From: Microcaldota archaeon
Lineage (GTDB): Archaea; Micrarchaeota; Micrarchaeia; Micrarchaeales; Micrarchaeaceae
Direction: 5' to 3'
Assembly: GCA_030040895.1 (NCBI GenBank)
Contig: JASHSJ010000013.1
Location: 1-57,413, forward strand
Length of the DNA stretch: 57,413 nucleotides
The notes below the pieces were generated by a model that was given only the letters and a program-made list of their open reading frames with translations, ran no database searches and was not told where the DNA came from. Positions 2,237 through 46,611 of this stretch are shown here, piece by piece; the first letter of the stretch is position 1, and each line of letters begins with the position of its first letter. A program made the position numbers and the translations under genes.

Positions 2237-2407
2237 TACTAATTAAACCTTTTGTAGTAGTCACTACTTTAATTCTCATCGGGAGCATAAGGCTTTTAAA
2301 GCTTATTAGTAATAATAGTTTCAGCGACACAGTTGAAATTAAATTTTAGAACTTTGGCGAGATCTAAAATTTATTCAAGATTCACATTCACGTTAATAGG
2401 CGATAAG

Positions 2408-3469
2408 ATGAGCGACCTTGTAAATGAAGTACTAGGAAGAGGATCCTCGACCGGATCCGTAGACGACGCATTCAGCAGCACACAGATCAAGATAGTGACC
2501 GCAGGATTTGGCGGGGCTGGCAACAACATAGTCAACCGATTGCTGAAGGCCGGAGTCAAGGGCACAGAATTTGTTGCGGTCAACACCGACGCGCAGCACT
2601 TCAAGATAATCGACGACAGGATAAAGAAAGTCTTGATAGGGAAGACGATAACAAGAGGGCTTGGTGCAGGAGGAGATCCGACAATCGGCATGAAGGCTGC
2701 AGAAGTAGACAGGCATCTGATTGAAGAGACGTTCGCTGGCACTCAGCTAGTGTTCCTGTGCGCTGGTATGGGAGGAGGGACTGGAACTGGATCAATAAGG
2801 GTAGCTGCTCAGATCGCAAAGGAGCAGGGAGCCATAGTAGTTGCGATGGTAACGTATCCGTTCGACCTGGAGAGAATCAGGAAGGCAAAGGCTGAGGACG
2901 GGATCCAGCAGCTGAGGAAGTACTGCGACAGCGTGATAATACTTGACAACAACGCGCTGGTAAGACTTGTACCAAACCTTCCGATGAACGATGCGTTCGC
3001 GCTTGCTGACGAAGTACTTGCAAAGGCGATAGGAGGCCTTGTCTGGACAATAACCCAGCCAAGTCTCATTAACATAGACTTCGCAGACGTGAGGGCAATC
3101 CTGGGCGGAGGAGATGTGGGATTCATAGCAGTAGGGATGGGCAAGGGCACAGACAAGGTCAGCTCAGCTGCAGAGGGAGTGCTCAAGAACAAACTCCTTG
3201 ATGTTGACTTCGAAGGTGCAAAGGGAGCAATAGTCCACATATCCGGCGGAGCATCTCTTACAATAGGAGACGCGATAAAGGCAGGAGAGATCATAACGGA
3301 CCGTATGGATCCGAGCGCAAACGTGAAGTGGGGCGCTAGACTGATTCCTGGATATGATGAGCAACTAGAAATAGTGGCAATAGTAACAGGAGTCAAGGGT
3401 TCGAGCATAGTGGGCAAGCTCGAGGAGAGAAAGGAGAGCGCCTTCGGCGGAATTGAAATGATAGGCTAA
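2408..3469 (+). CDS. ftsZ: Cell division protein FtsZ (first of two tandem copies)
   Basis: Tubulin-like GTPase that polymerises at the division site. The nucleotide loop FGGAGNN lies at 34-40, the tubulin signature GGGTGTGS at about 122-129 and the T7 catalytic loop NIDFADV at about 222-228, so both GTP binding and inter-subunit hydrolysis look intact. I choose ATG 2408 (353 aa, MSDLVNEV). An in-frame TTG at 2333 would add 25 residues of untypical sequence, and a TATA-like AAAATTTAT near 2367-2375 would place transcription start close to 2400. The N-terminus before residue 25 is flexible, and the C-terminus is short with no obvious long linker. A second ftsZ follows after 47 bases and sepF lies at 7 kb. 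Confidence 0.95.
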   Translation: MSDLVNEVLGRGSSTGSVDDAFSSTQIKIVTAGFGGAGNNIVNRLLKAGVKGTEFVAVNTDAQHFKIIDDRIKKVLIGKTITRGLGAGGDPTIGMKAAEVDRHLIEETFAGTQLVFLCAGMGGGTGTGSIRVAAQIAKEQGAIVVAMVTYPFDLERIRKAKAEDGIQQLRKYCDSVIILDNNALVRLVPNLPMNDAFALADEVLAKAIGGLVWTITQPSLINIDFADVRAILGGGDVGFIAVGMGKGTDKVSSAAEGVLKNKLLDVDFEGAKGAIVHISGGASLTIGDAIKAGEIITDRMDPSANVKWGARLIPGYDEQLEIVAIVTGVKGSSIVGKLEERKESAFGGIEMIG

Positions 3470-3516
3470 TACCTATCCTTTTAATTTTTTGTTTTTATTA
3501 CATTTAAGTGATTTGG

Positions 3517-4533
3517 ATGGCAGAAACTGGCGACGAGTACACTGCGAGGCTTGCGGTGGTTGGTTTGGGAGGCGCGGGGTCTAACCTCGTGAACAGATTG
3601 TACAACAGCGGGATTAAGAGCGCGACGACAATAGCCCTTAACACCGATGCAAAGCACCTAAACATGATAGGGGCTCATAAGAAAATCCTTATGGGAAGGG
3701 AGATAACCAGGGGACTCGGAGCGGGAGGCTTTCCAGAGGTAGGAGCAAAGTGCGCAGAGGCCAGCAAGAACGAAATCCTAGACGCAATAGACGGATGCCA
3801 CATGGTATTCCTTGCAGCTGGTATGGGTGGGGGGACAGGAGGAGGAAGCGCGCCGATTGTAGCGCAGATGGCAAGGGAGGCAGGAGCACTGGTTGTCGCA
3901 TTTGTAACATATCCATTCTCGCTGGAAAGGAGCAGAAAGCAGAAGGCTGACTGGGGCCTTGAGCAGCTGACAAAGAACGCTGACACTACTATAGTGATCG
4001 AGAACGACAGGCTGCTCAGTTATTCTCCAAATCTGCAGATAGAGAAGGCGTTCGAGCTTGTTGACAACATACTCCTAAACGCAGTTAGGGGCATATCTGA
4101 CACTATAATGCTTCCGAGCCTGATAAACCTTGATTTCGCTGATCTGAGGTCGATCATGGGCAACACAGGAACTGCTGTCATCAATATAGGAGCTGGATAT
4201 GGCCCAGACAGGGTTGAGAGGGCAATAAACTCGACATTGAGCCATCCGCTCATGGACGTTGACCTTGAAGGGGCAAAGAGCGCGATGGTTCACGTTACAG
4301 GGGGCACTTCATTGACCATAGGAGAGGCAACAAGGATAGGAGAAGGAGTTACAGCTGCGCTAGACCCTAAGGCGAACGTCATATTCGGGGCAAGATTGGT
4401 GCCAGAGCTTGCAGACCAAGTCAAGGTAATGTCAATAGTAACGGGAGTCAAGCCAAGGTTCAACAGCGCGAAGATGCCTGAGATGAGCGCAAGAACCCAG
4501 AACTCATTCGAGAGCCTTGAGAACCTGATCTGA
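3517..4533 (+). CDS. ftsZ: Cell division protein FtsZ, divergent second copy
   Basis: Second tubulin-like GTPase, 338 aa from ATG 3517. An upstream GTG at 3508 is in frame, but GTGAT at 3507-3512 looks like the ribosome binding site for ATG 3517. Nucleotide loop LGGAGSN at about 17-23; T7 loop LINLDFADL at 202-210 is intact. The tubulin signature reads GGGTGGGS (about 104-111) instead of GGGTGTGS, so the residue next to the phosphates differs from the consensus and from the first copy. The two copies are clearly different paralogues rather than a recent duplication. The C-terminal 30 residues (PRFNSAKMPEMSARTQNSF onward) form an unstructured tail that could bind SepF. Expected to co-assemble with, or act after, the first FtsZ. 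Confidence 0.93.
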   Translation: MAETGDEYTARLAVVGLGGAGSNLVNRLYNSGIKSATTIALNTDAKHLNMIGAHKKILMGREITRGLGAGGFPEVGAKCAEASKNEILDAIDGCHMVFLAAGMGGGTGGGSAPIVAQMAREAGALVVAFVTYPFSLERSRKQKADWGLEQLTKNADTTIVIENDRLLSYSPNLQIEKAFELVDNILLNAVRGISDTIMLPSLINLDFADLRSIMGNTGTAVINIGAGYGPDRVERAINSTLSHPLMDVDLEGAKSAMVHVTGGTSLTIGEATRIGEGVTAALDPKANVIFGARLVPELADQVKVMSIVTGVKPRFNSAKMPEMSARTQNSFESLENLI

Positions 4534-7910: not shown

Positions 7911-8831
7911 ATGCCGATAAACGCAAAAGAGACCTACGACAAAATATACGCGGAGGTCAAGAAGCACATAGCTGGAAATGAGAATACTATAAAGCTAATG
8001 CTAATGGCCATAATAGCAGATGGGCATGTGCTGCTTGAGGGAGTGCCGGGCGTGGCAAAAACCACAATGACAAAGACAATAGCCAGCACGCTTGATGCAA
8101 AGTTCGGAAGAATAGAAGGAACCGCAGACCTTCAGATAAAGGACGTAATCGGATACACATACATAGATGAAAACCATAATGTGCAGTTAAAGAAGGGTCC
8201 AATATTCACGAATATATTGCTGATCGACGAGCTGAACAGAACCCAGCCGACCGTTGCGACTGCATTCCTTGAGGCCTTGGAAGAGAAAAGAGTGACGATC
8301 GGAAACAATGACATAATACTGGACAAGCCGTTCATAACATTTGCAACGCAAAACCCACTGAATATTGAAGGGACATTGCCGCTCCCGAAAGTTCTTGCAG
8401 ATCGTTTCATAATGAGGATAGAAGTCAAGTATGCATCAGAAGAGCAAGAGCAGGAAATGCTCAGGCTCAAGGAAAAGGAAGAACTGGGCACAGAGCCAGT
8501 AAAGAAGATAATAGGGGTAAAAGAAATATTGGAGATGCAGAGCCTGGCTGACCGCATAGCAATGCCTGATGACGTTGTACAAGCTATAGTAAAGATGGTA
8601 GATGCAACAAGGAAAGAAATTCATGTTGTGATGGGAGGAAGTCCCAGGGCAGAGATAAGCTTCATGAGAGCAGCCAAGGCAAAGGCCCTCATAGAAGGAA
8701 GATCTTCAACATCTGTTGATGACATAATATTCCTGGCAAGGCCCGTACTCAGCCACAGGATAGCCGTAAAGGCATCAGGAGGCCTTGGGGTAAACGGCAT
8801 AATAGACGGAATAGTGGCCATGCAGAAGTAG
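7911..8831 (+). CDS. MoxR-type AAA+ ATPase
   Basis: MoxR proteins are AAA+ chaperones that help mature or activate partner complexes, often with VWA-domain proteins. Walker A GVPGVAKT is at 44-51, Walker B LLIDELNR at about 103-110, sensor 1 ATQNPLN at about 145-151, and the C-terminal lid with sensor 2 (GGSPRAEISF) at about 243-252. Length (306 aa) is normal. No VWA or DUF58 partner is next to it, which is unusual. The nucleoside phosphorylase starts five bases after its stop. The first nine Ile codons are all ATA, showing the codon bias of this genome. Confidence 0.93.
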   Translation: MPINAKETYDKIYAEVKKHIAGNENTIKLMLMAIIADGHVLLEGVPGVAKTTMTKTIASTLDAKFGRIEGTADLQIKDVIGYTYIDENHNVQLKKGPIFTNILLIDELNRTQPTVATAFLEALEEKRVTIGNNDIILDKPFITFATQNPLNIEGTLPLPKVLADRFIMRIEVKYASEEQEQEMLRLKEKEELGTEPVKKIIGVKEILEMQSLADRIAMPDDVVQAIVKMVDATRKEIHVVMGGSPRAEISFMRAAKAKALIEGRSSTSVDDIIFLARPVLSHRIAVKASGGLGVNGIIDGIVAMQK

Positions 8832-25966: not shown

Positions 25967-26104
25967 GGGGCTGTAGCGTAACCTGGCAGCGCAGTTGGCT
26001 CCAGATGTTTATAGTTATTTTGAGCTAACGCGATGATGAGGATCTGGAAATCGATTATATCATGAAGTAACCAACTGGTCCGGGTTCAAATCCCGGCGGC
26101 CCCA
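25967..26104 (+). tRNA. tRNA-Trp (CCA) with 65-nt intron
   Basis: Exons 25967-26004 and 26070-26104 join to a normal tRNA. Acceptor GGGGCTG pairs with CGGCCCC, D stem GCGT/GCGC, anticodon stem GTTGG/CCAAC with loop CTCCAGA and anticodon CCA, T arm CCGGG-TTCAAAT-CCCGG, discriminator A. The intron is at the canonical 37/38 position. At the 3' site I can draw a three-base UAA bulge cut after its second base, next to a four-pair helix CUCC/GAAG with one C-A mismatch. The bulge-helix-bulge is thus relaxed rather than perfect, and the broad-specificity EndA at 55.5 kb could process it. Confidence 0.95.
26005..26069 (+). ncRNA. tRNA-Trp intron, possible box C/D guide RNA
   Basis: The intron contains ATGATGA (26033-26039), a match to the box C consensus. 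Three bases on, ATCTGGA (26042-26048) is complementary to TCCAGAT at 26000-26006, which covers the anticodon loop from U33 and C34. In several Euryarchaeota the tRNA-Trp intron is a C/D RNA that guides methylation of C34 and U39. Here position 39 is C, so only the C34 guide would be needed. I find no clean CTGA box D or D'; a degenerate box around 26051-26055 would be required. Confidence 0.5.
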
Positions 26105-29881: not shown

Positions 29882-31216
29882 TTGCTTGATCCGACTTTCT
29901 TTGATAGATTCACTATGGGATTCTCGCTTGCGGTCCATATAGCGCTTGTGCTAGTGGGCATATTCCTGCCTCTCATAATAATGATTGCAGAATATCTTGG
30001 GATCCGCTACAAGGACAAATACTACCTTGTGCTTTCTAGGAGACTCTCCACCGCGTTCGTGATATTCTTTGCTGTTGGAACTGCATCTGGGCTGCTTGTC
30101 GCTGTTAACCTTCTTTTCCTGTGGCCTAGTTTCATGGCACTCGCAAGCCAGGTGGCAATACTGCCCGTCTTCCTTGAAGTATTCGCATTCTTTATGGAGT
30201 CGATATTCCTTGCAATATATATATTCTCGTACAAGACCATCGGCAACACCTACAAGCACGTAGCGATAATTGGTATTGTGGTCCTTGGTGCTGCGCTATC
30301 AGCAATATTCATAACAATGCTCAACAGCTGGATGAACACGCCAGTTGGATTCAACATTGCTGCCTATCTACAAACTGGCAATGTGATAGTAACGAATCCG
30401 CTGGCAGTATTCACTAGTCCATCAGGATCAATAGAGATACCTCATGTGTTAGCAACAACGTATTTTGCCGGATCCACTCTCTTCCTAGCGTATTTTGCAT
30501 ACATGTTCCAGAGGAGCAAGAGCAAGGACGAGAAACAGTATTACAAACGGGGAATGAAAATATCATTTGCAATTGCACTCATAGGAGTATTCTTTTCCAT
30601 AGTAACAGGAATTCTGTCAATACAATCGTTGTACTATCTCCAGCCTGAGAAGTATGCGGCCATTGAACTCAATCTTGTATCACAGCCTGACGCGCCGGAG
30701 TTGATAGGTGGAATATATTCGAATGTTACCAATTCGATCTCTGACGATATCTCAATACCTGGTCTCCAGAGCGTGCTTGCTACGGGCAGCGTGAATGGCA
30801 CAGTGCCTGGGCTCAATCAATATCCAACCTGGACATGGCCTCCCCTTATAGTCCATGATATGTTCGATCTTATGGTCATACTGGGATTTCTTATTGGCAT
30901 TGTAATGTTTGTTGCTCTGGCACGGCAATTACTTAGGAAGGACATGTTCGAAATGCCAATATTCTCAAAACTCTTCATGCTCTGCGGTGCTGGCGCAATA
31001 ATACTAATAGAAAACGGCTGGATGGTAGATGAATTTGGAAGACAGCCTTGGATAATCTACAACGTAATGACCGTGGCTTCTGCTGCAAACCAATCTCAGA
31101 CTATAATACCGCTGGCGATCTTGATAGTAATAGTCTATGCGCTTATCATACCGGTTTTATTCTTTGTGCTGAAGGGCGTGTTTTCAAAGAGGCCGCTCTT
31201 GGATGAGTTGAGATAA
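29882..31216 (+). CDS. cydA: Cytochrome bd quinol oxidase subunit I
   Basis: Oxidises quinol and reduces O2 to water without pumping. The N-terminus RFTMGFSLAVHIALV carries the heme ligand His19; FFMESIFLAIY holds the conserved Glu in helix 3. QPEKYAAIELN marks the start of the quinol-binding loop, and DEFGRQPWIIYN is the conserved GRQPW motif before the last helices. Start is TTG 29882; starting at ATG 29915 would remove conserved residues. 444 aa is in the normal range for the short-loop type. Overlaps cydB by one base. Confidence 0.95.
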   Translation: MLDPTFFDRFTMGFSLAVHIALVLVGIFLPLIIMIAEYLGIRYKDKYYLVLSRRLSTAFVIFFAVGTASGLLVAVNLLFLWPSFMALASQVAILPVFLEVFAFFMESIFLAIYIFSYKTIGNTYKHVAIIGIVVLGAALSAIFITMLNSWMNTPVGFNIAAYLQTGNVIVTNPLAVFTSPSGSIEIPHVLATTYFAGSTLFLAYFAYMFQRSKSKDEKQYYKRGMKISFAIALIGVFFSIVTGILSIQSLYYLQPEKYAAIELNLVSQPDAPELIGGIYSNVTNSISDDISIPGLQSVLATGSVNGTVPGLNQYPTWTWPPLIVHDMFDLMVILGFLIGIVMFVALARQLLRKDMFEMPIFSKLFMLCGAGAIILIENGWMVDEFGRQPWIIYNVMTVASAANQSQTIIPLAILIVIVYALIIPVLFFVLKGVFSKRPLLDELR

Positions 31217-32163
31217 TGGATGTCCTTAGCATAGTTAGTTCCGTCACGTTCGCTGGCTTGCTGTCGCTTTACATACTTGAACTCGGAGCAGCGGTATGGC
31301 TCCTTGTAGATTACAATAAATATAATGCCAGGCTGGCCGCGTACGTTGCACCTATATGGGAGATAACAGGAACCTTTTCCGTATTCTACCTAGTAAGCTT
31401 CGAAGCGTTTTATCCAAAGTTGCTTTTTTTGGTTGGAACGGTCTATATACTGCCAATAATCTTGGGCATGGTATTCTTGATACTCAGAGATTCGTTCTTG
31501 GCCTATAGCGAATACATAGATGATTCGGCAAAGGAGTTTGCCTATTCCAGAATATATGGAATCACTACCATTCTGGCCTTGTTTCTCTTGATAACTGTGC
31601 TCGATTCTTCAATAAGCGGATATGGTATCAATATCGCAATCCTAGCATCCAACTACTGGTTCATGCTATCGAATCCATTCAATATACTGATGTTCCTTGC
31701 TGTTTTCATGCTGGTCATCTTCACTTCAGGGATATTCTTTAACATAAGGAACATCGACCTTGTACTGGCAAGCTTCATAGCCTTCATGGGACTGTTCTTG
31801 TTCACAACCTACGAGTACCTGCCATCGCTGTACACGGCTATTGCATCAAACCTTTATCTTCTTGTCCCATCCGTGGCTCTCCTTCTGATAGTTCTGGGAA
31901 TGTTTATAAAGAATGACAAATACACCAGATTCTTTGTGTTGCCATTTCTCTTCATAAGCCTATTCTCGTTTGAATATTTTGCATATCCGTGGCTATTCGG
32001 AGGAAGCATAAACATAACCAGTTATCTTGCACCTTCAATAAACTCGCCATACTTGGCTGCAATTATAATATTTGGAGGTATTTTCCTTGCTGTGGCTCTC
32101 GGGTATTTTGTTTACATCCAGCACCTACACAGGGAGAACGCAGGAAATGATGACTATGACTGA
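31216..32163 (+). CDS. cydB: Cytochrome bd oxidase subunit II, divergent
   Basis: Membrane partner of CydA, required for oxidase stability. 315 aa with about eight or nine helices. APIWEITGTFSVFYLVSFEAFYP (first part, about 45-60) corresponds to the conserved W-x-x-E-T/G region of subunit II, and LRDSFLAYSEY to the following loop. Overall similarity is weak, so the assignment leans on gene order: ATG overlaps the cydA stop (TAATG). Ends overlap the alaX start. Confidence 0.8.
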   Translation: MDVLSIVSSVTFAGLLSLYILELGAAVWLLVDYNKYNARLAAYVAPIWEITGTFSVFYLVSFEAFYPKLLFLVGTVYILPIILGMVFLILRDSFLAYSEYIDDSAKEFAYSRIYGITTILALFLLITVLDSSISGYGINIAILASNYWFMLSNPFNILMFLAVFMLVIFTSGIFFNIRNIDLVLASFIAFMGLFLFTTYEYLPSLYTAIASNLYLLVPSVALLLIVLGMFIKNDKYTRFFVLPFLFISLFSFEYFAYPWLFGGSINITSYLAPSINSPYLAAIIIFGGIFLAVALGYFVYIQHLHRENAGNDDYD

Positions 32164-36410: not shown

Positions 36411-37259
36411 GTGTTGCTCGGTGATGTGCTACAGCGCATAATTGCTAGGAGGTGGATAGCTGGCCCAGACATAAGTGATGCAATGATCAGGGCTAGGGCG
36501 CTCAACGGCAAAGGCATAATTGCAATAATAAACTATCTCGGAGAAGAGCTTGACAACATAAGGGATGTGGATTATACTGTAAAAGTTTATAAGCAATTGA
36601 TCCGGGCCGTAAAGAGCGAGCATGTCAAAGCAGATATCACCGTAAAGGCGTCGCAGCTGGGCCTCAGGATAAACAATCGTGTGGCAAGAAGGCACTATGG
36701 CGAACTGGCAAAACTTTGCAAGAAGAACAGATTGTTCCTTTGGCTTGATATGGAAGAATATGAGCTCGTTTCAAGGACCATAGATCTGTACTTATCTGCA
36801 GGAAGAACGTCGGGTCGTGGAATCTGCATACAGTCATATCTTAGGAGAAGTAGAAATGACCTGATAAAACTGGCCAAATGCAAAGCAGTTATAAGACTGG
36901 TTAAGGGCGCGCATGCAGCTGCAAATAACCCGGTATATGAGAGCAGGGATGCCGCAACGGAAAACTACTATGCTCTCATGGAATACCTGTTCAAAAACTG
37001 CAATTCTTTTACCATAGGCACGCATGATTCTGAAATAATAAATAATGCCTTTAAACTAAATAGAAAGTACAAAAGAGACGTCACTTATGCAATGCTGAAT
37101 GGAATAAGGGATCAGTATGCGGCTGGACTTGCAAAGCACAACAAAGTTGCAGTATACGTTCCATTTGGAAGGCGCTGGTTCGGGTATTCTTACAGGAGGA
37201 TAAAGGAACTCAACAACATGAAGCTCATACTAACATCTATAGCCAAGAGGGGCAACTGA
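36411..37259 (+). CDS. Proline dehydrogenase
   Basis: FAD enzyme that oxidises proline to pyrroline-5-carboxylate and passes electrons to quinone. Conserved parts: ITVKASQLGLRI (about 76-87), FLWLDMEEYE (about 104-113), ICIQSYLRRSRNDL (about 138-151), IRLVKGAHA (about 162-170), THDSEIIN (about 203-210), and the substrate region YVPFGRRWFGYSYRRIKEL near the end with the paired Arg that bind the proline carboxylate. Start GTG 36411. No P5C dehydrogenase is in the window. The electrons could reach the cytochrome bd encoded 5 kb away. Confidence 0.9.
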   Translation: MLLGDVLQRIIARRWIAGPDISDAMIRARALNGKGIIAIINYLGEELDNIRDVDYTVKVYKQLIRAVKSEHVKADITVKASQLGLRINNRVARRHYGELAKLCKKNRLFLWLDMEEYELVSRTIDLYLSAGRTSGRGICIQSYLRRSRNDLIKLAKCKAVIRLVKGAHAAANNPVYESRDAATENYYALMEYLFKNCNSFTIGTHDSEIINNAFKLNRKYKRDVTYAMLNGIRDQYAAGLAKHNKVAVYVPFGRRWFGYSYRRIKELNNMKLILTSIAKRGN

Positions 37260-43830: not shown

Positions 43831-44175
43831 TTGATTGGTGTTCTAGTGGTCATAAGAGACAAGGGACTAGAAAGAAGAATAGCAACGGAAAGGATAGAAA
43901 TTCTTTTCGGGCTTGCAAAGGAGCAAGCAGGAAAAAGAGGCGGGTTATCTAAGAGGTACGTATCTTTGATGAGAAAGATGAGCTCTCACTATAAGGTCAG
44001 CATACCAAAAGAGATGAAGCTGGCAATCTGCAAAAGCTGTAATGACATCATAGTGCCCGGAATAAATGGAACTGTTAGGCTTGCTAGCACTCCAAAAAGG
44101 ATATTGTATATTTGCAGCAGATGCGGCAGCTCCAATTCACTTATCTATTCAAAATCTGCTCAGCCTCGGGCTTAA
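43831..44175 (+). CDS. rnp4: RNase P protein component 4 (Rpr2/Rpp21)
   Basis: Zinc-ribbon protein of the archaeal RNase P holoenzyme, which removes tRNA 5' leaders. IATERIEILFGLAKEQAG (about 17-34) and RYVSLMRKMSSHYKVSIPKE are the helical RNA-binding part; CKSC (67-70) and CSRC (94-97) hold the zinc. 114 aa is normal. Start TTG 43831 directly follows the previous stop. The 3' end overlaps the opposite-strand tyw1 by 35 bases. Confidence 0.92.
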   Translation: MIGVLVVIRDKGLERRIATERIEILFGLAKEQAGKRGGLSKRYVSLMRKMSSHYKVSIPKEMKLAICKSCNDIIVPGINGTVRLASTPKRILYICSRCGSSNSLIYSKSAQPRA

Positions 44176-45160
44176 TCTTAGAAAAGTCGATGATCCTGTT
44201 CTTGAATGACTCTTGATCTCTGCATAGCAGCACAATCCTACTTGGCTTGTGTTCCACAGTGTACATGTAACCTGACAGCTCTGCTAGCTTTTTCGCAAAC
44301 TCCCTTATTTCCTCATGATTTGGCATGCTTGACATATCCAGGTTTCTTGCTGGATTCCTTGAACCTCCGACAAATGAGAACCCTTTTACCTCAACGTAGT
44401 TTGGCCTGCCCCTCTTTATGAGATCGGCGTATCCTTCTGGGTTGTGCATATTCAGGCCCTTAACTAGCGTCATCCTGAGCACGGTTCTTGTACTGAGGCC
44501 TTTTATCACGTCCATGCATCTCAGGAATCTTTCCCATGCATTTGGTATTTTGGCTCTCGTGGTTCTCACGTATGTTTCTTCGTCCGGAGCCTGCATAGAT
44601 ACGTATAGCTGTGTTGGTAGGGGATCTAACTTCTCTATCGCCTCTGGAAGCGTTCCGTTGTGAACCAGAAATGTGCTTATGCCACGCTTATGAAAGCCTT
44701 CTATAAGCTTCCCCATCTTTGGATAGAACATCGGCTCACCAGTAAGGCTGAGCGCAACGTGCATCGGTTCTCTTGCCTCCTTCCATCTTCGTTTCTTCAA
44801 TTCAGTATCTGCTATGGCATTAAATCCGCTGATTAGCCTCTCTTGCTCCCTTATCATTCCGTCAATTATCTTTTCTGGATCTTCCCATTCCTGGACTGCG
44901 TTGAGCTCGTTCCACTTGAAACCGTGTTCTTCTGGTATCAGTCTCCAGCAGAAACTGCATCCAAGATCGCATCCGATTGCCGGAGTGGCCTGCATGCACC
45001 TCCAACTCCTTATTCCATAGAAAGTATACTTGTAACAAAGCGTCTGCCCACGAAGGCCATTTGCTGTATATTCGCACGTCTTGACAGCGGAATGTTCTCC
45101 GACAAAATGATATCCTTGTTTCTCCATCTTGTACTTAAGCTCATCCGGCATATTGGCCAT
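44141..45160 (-). CDS. taw1: 4-demethylwyosine synthase TYW1 (radical SAM)
   Basis: Makes the tricyclic base precursor at G37 of tRNA-Phe from m1G and pyruvate. The radical-SAM cluster motif CDLGCSFCW (C64, C68, C71 from this start) and two further cysteines for the second cluster (KTCEY and TLCYKY/RCMQ) are present. GYHFVGEHSAVKTC and YGIRSWRCMQATP match archaeal TYW1. ATG 45160 avoids overlap with the upstream HIT gene; a TTG at 45178 is possible. It shares a minus-strand transcript with the HIT gene. Confidence 0.93.
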   Translation of the reverse strand: MANMPDELKYKMEKQGYHFVGEHSAVKTCEYTANGLRGQTLCYKYTFYGIRSWRCMQATPAIGCDLGCSFCWRLIPEEHGFKWNELNAVQEWEDPEKIIDGMIREQERLISGFNAIADTELKKRRWKEAREPMHVALSLTGEPMFYPKMGKLIEGFHKRGISTFLVHNGTLPEAIEKLDPLPTQLYVSMQAPDEETYVRTTRAKIPNAWERFLRCMDVIKGLSTRTVLRMTLVKGLNMHNPEGYADLIKRGRPNYVEVKGFSFVGGSRNPARNLDMSSMPNHEEIREFAKKLAELSGYMYTVEHKPSRIVLLCRDQESFKNRIIDFSKIKPEAEQILNR

Positions 45161-45161
45161 T

Positions 45162-45590
45162 TCAAAACCTGCTATCAAACTTCAACAGCTTGACTAGTTC
45201 ATCCCTGAGCTCATTAGTTATAAGATGTTCGTGGTCGAATTTGAAAGTATCCATAGGATTGTGCGCGTACTTGTATCTCGGTATTACATGAATGTGGAAG
45301 TGCATTATGAACTGCCCTGCTATCTTGCCTATGTTGGTAACTACGTTTATACCGCCGTCAGGGTCTAGTCGCTCCTTTACGATTTGCGCCGCCTTCTTGG
45401 CGACTTCATAGGTATCATCGATGACGTCTTTTGGCGTATCCAGCATGTCCTGGTAGTGCTTCTTTGGTATGACAAGGAGATGGCCTCTTGATATTGGATA
45501 CTTATCAACTACCACGCGGCACTTGCTGTCTTCGTATATTATCCCGTGCTCCGACAGGTTCTTGTCGCTGCAGAATGAACAATCTTGCAT
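45162..45590 (-). CDS. HIT-family nucleotide-binding protein
   Basis: Histidine-triad nucleotidyl hydrolase or transferase, 142 aa. The catalytic HFHIHVIPR is at 97-105 (H97, H99, H101). RGHLLVIPKKHYQD (about 35-48) is the conserved nucleotide-binding strand. N-terminal CSFC (4-7) likely binds zinc, as in many HIT proteins. It could remove adenylate by-products from aminoacyl-AMP or similar molecules. Directly upstream of tyw1. Confidence 0.93.
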   Translation of the reverse strand: MQDCSFCSDKNLSEHGIIYEDSKCRVVVDKYPISRGHLLVIPKKHYQDMLDTPKDVIDDTYEVAKKAAQIVKERLDPDGGINVVTNIGKIAGQFIMHFHIHVIPRYKYAHNPMDTFKFDHEHLITNELRDELVKLLKFDSRF

Positions 45591-46492: not shown

Positions 46493-46536
46493 GATTCAAT
46501 ATCTGGAAAGAGCTAAAAGACTCACCGTAAATAATG

Positions 46537-46611
46537 TGGGCCCGGTGAGATTTGAACTCACGACCTACGGCTTATAAGACCGTCGCTCTAACCAGGCTGA
46601 GCTACGAGCCC
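46537..46611 (-). tRNA. tRNA-Ile (UAU)
   Basis: 75 nt on the minus strand. Acceptor GGGCTCG pairs with CGGGCCC (with one G-U). The D stem GCTC/GAGC is perfect, the T arm is GTGAG-TTCAAAT-CTCAC and the discriminator is A. The anticodon stem ACGGT/GCCGT encloses loop CTTATAA, so the anticodon is TAT and reads AUA. Most archaea instead read AUA with a CAU tRNA carrying agmatidine. No intron and no encoded CCA. Confidence 0.95.

Follow-up and report, generated by a model that had tools for sequence, protein, structure and literature searches.

In Archaea, the standard view of AUA decoding is that the codon is read by a tRNA-Ile2 with a CAU anticodon, in which C34 is modified to agmatidine (agm2C-A-U) by TiaS. 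According to a review, the UAU anticodon is not used, since a tRNA with cm5U34-UAU would misread AUG (PMC8879553), and the only archaea for which it has been reported are Nanoarchaeum and Korarchaeum (PMC6000648, PMC8450103), in keeping with the few lineages cited in the preliminary description of the DNA studied here. Both Nanoarchaeum equitans and Korarchaeum cryptofilum have a UAU anticodon and no tRNA-Ile2(CAU) (PMC6000648, PMC8450103), the Korarchaeum tRNA-Ile(UAU) being also intron-bearing. Similarly, the bacterium Mycoplasma mobile, which has no C34-modifying enzyme (tilS), decodes AUA with a tRNA-Ile UAU (PMC4810244). Eukaryotes likewise use a UAU-encoded tRNA-Ile as their AUA reader, and they pseudouridylate its positions 34 and 36 (Psi-A-Psi). 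As for Mycoplasma mobile, which represents an independent bacterial event, work by Taniguchi in 2013 is said to have found U34 unmodified in its tRNA-Ile UAU, and special properties of its IleRS and ribosome have reportedly been described.

The locus considered here, a tRNA-Ile(UAU) gene of a member of the Micrarchaeota, would serve the same codon and the same role as the agmatidine system, but neither a CAU Ile2 tRNA nor TiaS was found with it. Compared to N. equitans and K. cryptofilum, the trait marks nearly a whole phylum plus many other DPANN genomes, and the order of our genome is additionally devoid of detectable Elp3 and NcsA-like thiolase. In comparison with the eukaryotic tRNA-Ile, the present gene is intronless. 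In the literature searched (subscription papers lying outside the search), we found no description of a phylum-wide UAU trait or of an absence of Elp3 and NcsA in the order.

The gene lies at 46537–46611 on the minus strand of the window (i.e., the whole stretch of 57,413 nucleotides that was analysed), has a discriminator A73 and leaves the CCA end unencoded. ARAGORN reports a tRNA-Ile with anticodon TAT at 46536–46611 (minus strand), Rfam RF00005 scores 72.1 bits across 46537–46611 and the cloverleaf has a folding energy of −29 kcal/mol (z = −2.7), all of which bears out the initial reading of a tRNA-Ile with a UAU anticodon in the loop CTTATAA. This anticodon loop is C32-U33-U34-A35-U36-A37-A38, and the anticodon itself (positions 34–36) falls at 46574–46576 (minus strand), based on the loop CUUAUAA in the Rfam alignment and on the anticodon position given by ARAGORN (36). 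A tRNA-shaped pattern with a UAU anticodon has a single match in the window and none in 100 shuffled sequences. Moreover, the acceptor stem, A73 and the D-arm are similar to those of the tRNA-Ile(GAU) of the same genome, and the likeness of the acceptor arm and A73 supports the predicted isoleucine identity. The draft status of the genome, and nothing more, might suggest that we are dealing with a pseudogene or with an artefact of binning, a reading that has practically no chance of being right in view of the perfect cloverleaf (both in the RF00005 alignment and in the fold) and of the position of the tRNA within a contig of 151,661 bases; it was rejected because orthologues are kept across the phylum, in independent genomes.

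AUA is the main isoleucine codon of the window, with ATA accounting for 814 of the 1143 Ile codons (71%) of 42 genes. This had been proposed from the moxR-type AAA+ ATPase gene (7911–8831, plus strand), and our codon count agrees that ATA is used for each of its first nine Ile codons; ATC appears at the tenth, and ATA is found at 30 of the 35 overall. AUA being the main Ile codon, a single conserved UAU tRNA must carry a real load. The window also features two neighbouring FtsZ-like genes (2333–4533, plus strand), so named from sequence, as well as genes for subunit I of cytochrome bd oxidase, for its probable subunit II and for proline dehydrogenase (29882–32163 and 36411–37259, both plus strand), the genome being a reduced one.

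Our genome amounts to 763,789 bases in 34 contigs and yielded 42 tRNA hits, among which no tRNA-Ile2(CAU) was recognised. Genome-wide, the CAU anticodon is carried by just two tRNAs, one with initiator features (L016) and the other an elongator tRNA-Met with a 37/38 intron (L025), while the TiaS domain PF08489 (FLD) has no match, the four archaeal control genomes being all positive. Both absences had been predicted from the UAU anticodon. Regarding TilS, there is no PF01171 match in the genome. Because the assembly reaches 92% completeness and its tRNA set lacks at least six members that would be expected (Phe, Leu-UAA, Pro-UGG, Pro-GGG, Ser-GGA and Arg-CCG), these absences are convincing only jointly with those in relatives. 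Two tRNAs of the same genome, Leu CAA (L039) and Arg UCG (L041), have a T-arm that looks broken, and the default ARAGORN scan missed a tRNA at 25967–26104 (plus strand) with an intron of about 65 bases. The loop CUCCA of the latter suggests a tRNA-Trp(CCA), ARAGORN run with introns gives Arg(CCU), and its intron contains GATGATGA along with a segment showing complementarity to the anticodon loop, which would be expected of a box C/D guide intron.

Among relatives, a search allowing mismatches recovered no extra CAU tRNA in 35 genomes, and a third CAU tRNA is absent from the tRNA sets of our genome and of genome G054. TiaS was found in none of the 295 Micrarchaeota genomes sampled, including 96 that combine a completeness of at least 90% with low contamination, nor in any of 50 UAU-bearing genomes (mostly other DPANN) taken from named records among the matches listed; the latter were preselected for the UAU tRNA and thus speak to its mutual exclusion with TiaS, not to prevalence. 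In the genomes sampled, the UAU tRNA and TiaS are mutually exclusive. One could still imagine that the UAU tRNA is redundant and that AUA continues to be read by a hidden intron-bearing tRNA-Ile2(CAU), modified by an unrecognised agmatidine synthase, especially as introns break tRNA genes at unusual sites in these organisms and a few expected tRNAs are missing. We nevertheless rejected this scenario, which is very improbable given the absence of TiaS from the 295 plus 50 genomes, the lack of a third CAU tRNA and the load borne by the one conserved UAU tRNA. Hence, our reading, which we hold with high confidence, is that a genomically encoded UAU tRNA-Ile replaces both tRNA-Ile2(CAU) and TiaS (agmatidine-34), as the only AUA-reading isoacceptor found.

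The UAU tRNA combined with the absence of TiaS is nearly phylum-wide and not an isolated oddity. A pattern for the intronless gene had matches in 39 genomes of the phylum, and another, built on the 5' half of the gene and tolerant of a canonical intron, had matches in 57 of the 98 genomes at least 90% complete. With a tRNA survey and less stringent patterns, this count rose to 86 of 98 (47 of 51 in the order of our genome and 39 of 47 outside it). In the phylum, the gene is often interrupted by a 37/38 intron, while it is intronless in the window and in many relatives of the same order. The 12 genomes without a detected UAU tRNA are in line with incompleteness and with extra introns in the D- and T-arms. 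Genome G009 (100% complete) has no UAU tRNA by pattern but carries no weight in this respect, as its Gly and Lys-UUU tRNAs likewise escaped RF00005. T-arm introns, in some cases accompanied by D-arm introns, were observed in the tRNA-Ile(UAU) of other genomes (L080, L083, L142, L218, L319 and L327). One candidate (L320, in genome G135) was discarded: despite its match to the short pattern, it does not represent a tRNA.

In named records, the contigs with a UAU tRNA, among the matches listed, belong mostly to Micrarchaeota, Woesearchaeota, Pacearchaeota, Nanoarchaeota, Diapherotrites and Aenigmatarchaeota, along with three contigs labelled Thermoproteota, which have a Korarchaeota-like look, and a few bacterial ones. 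Bacterial labels are attached to contigs L117, L121, L178 and L179 (two Parcubacteria, Akkermansiaceae and WPS-2). In eight contigs (L113, L115, L129, L136, L139, L175, L188 and L211), five of which are labelled Diapherotrites, C38 replaces A38 (loop CUUAUAC).

The anticodon loop of the window tRNA is closed by a wobble pair between U31 (46579) and G39 (46571; pair spanning 46571–46579, minus strand), the sole U-G at 31–39 among the 35 intronless tRNA genes of our genome. This pair is conserved: although the patterns used in the phylum put no constraint on positions 31 and 39, U31 and G39 are present in every match to the intronless pattern within the order, and an automatic tabulation, in which a few genomes were counted twice, gave U31-G39 in all 46 loci of the order that could be resolved; two further loci, misread by the script, have it on inspection by eye. 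Elsewhere in the phylum, the pair is U-G in 29 cases and U-A in four, while the named contigs among the matches listed comprise 84 U-G, 13 U-A, five C-G and one A-U. The five contigs with C31-G39 are Korarchaeota-like and bacterial, so that the Korarchaeota-like copies differ from the DPANN copies, which mostly have U31-G39. Such conservation suggests that the pair may have a function in the anticodon loop.

Under the replacement hypothesis, a U instead of a C at position 34 would remove both problems that agmatidine solves, since MetRS should not recognise UAU, IleRS would charge the UAU tRNA directly and U34 would pair with the A3 of AUA with no need of modification. According to published work, reading G3 requires U34 modification (PMC7668247). 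As for the wobble-U enzymes, Elp3 (TIGR01211 above cut-off) was found in none of the 51 genomes of the order but in 47 of 47 good-quality genomes elsewhere in the class, and PF01171 matches of at least 45 bits (NcsA-like thiolase) in none of the 51 compared to 39 of 47 outside the order, two representative PF01171 proteins having NcsA as their best match. Since Elp3 (cm5U34) and the NcsA-type thiolase (s2U34) were not found in the order, U34 may well be bare there, a reading of gene content to which we give roughly even chances. The order has no need of U34 to read G, as suggested by the C34 tRNAs for split-box NNG codons present in our own genome, i.e., Lys CUU, Glu CUC, Gln CUG, Arg CCU and Leu CAA, which serve AAG, GAG, CAG, AGG and UUG. 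tRNA modification was not lost wholesale in our genome either, given that a TYW1 gene (4-demethylwyosine synthase; 44141–45178, minus strand) is kept about 1.4 kb from the tRNA-Ile(UAU). Based on rough ORFs from related genomes, ATA makes up 66% of Ile codons in loci of the order versus 42% in Elp3-bearing families of similar GC3, and the order favours AAG over AAA relative to these families, again at similar GC3. Yet, the enzyme losses at the level of the order may all go back to one evolutionary event, which makes their link with AUA use a correlation only. In the Elp3-bearing families, the UAU tRNA must escape Elp3 or tolerate it.

With the known archaeal U34-modifying enzymes missing from the order, and of the two options raised in the preliminary description for the avoidance of AUG, structure (or competition) seems likelier in the order than U34 modification. 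A bare U34 would be poor at pairing with G3, AUG would be left to the elongator tRNA-Met(CAU), which competes for it, and the U31-G39 pair might tune the loop against AUG; this account of AUA/AUG discrimination is our inference. Counting against a bare U34 is superwobbling, which in principle allows it to read any of the four bases (PMC8879553) and would do harm where a box is split between two amino acids. Alternatively, AUA specificity could stem from a pseudouridylated U34 (and perhaps U36), as in the eukaryotic Psi-A-Psi tRNA-Ile. Many relatives have a 37/38 intron in this tRNA, and in yeast, pseudouridylation of the corresponding tRNA-Ile depends on the intron. The eukaryotic tRNA provides a precedent (PMC6000648, PMC8879553). 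We consider this alternative rather unlikely, however, because the gene is intronless in the window and in many relatives of the same order, where an intron-dependent enzyme could not act. Another scenario is that U34 is modified by some other enzyme, whether a transferred bacterial-type MnmEG/MnmA, a C/D-guided 2'-O-methylation or a novel enzyme. DPANN genomes often carry transferred genes, and Um34, possibly C/D-guided, is known from Sulfolobus tRNA-Gln (PMC7668247), but the Elp3 and PF01171 searches were negative in the order, and this scenario appears doubtful, if conceivable. Returning to the bare U34, a broader version can be put forward only tentatively: the whole order would be without any U34 modification, the bare UAU would read AUA, AUG would be excluded by the U31-G39 architecture together with competition from tRNA-Met, and UAU decoding would be ancestral in DPANN instead of resulting from a few isolated gains.

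While agmatidine-modified tRNA-Ile(CAU) is the standard view for Archaea, Micrarchaeota as a phylum generally use the UAU tRNA. The distribution of Elp3 inside and outside the order offers a natural paired comparison for understanding how a U34 tRNA reads AUA and not AUG. Two further questions are touched on by these results, namely whether AUA decoding by UAU goes back to the DPANN ancestor and which tRNA modifications reduced genomes can dispense with.
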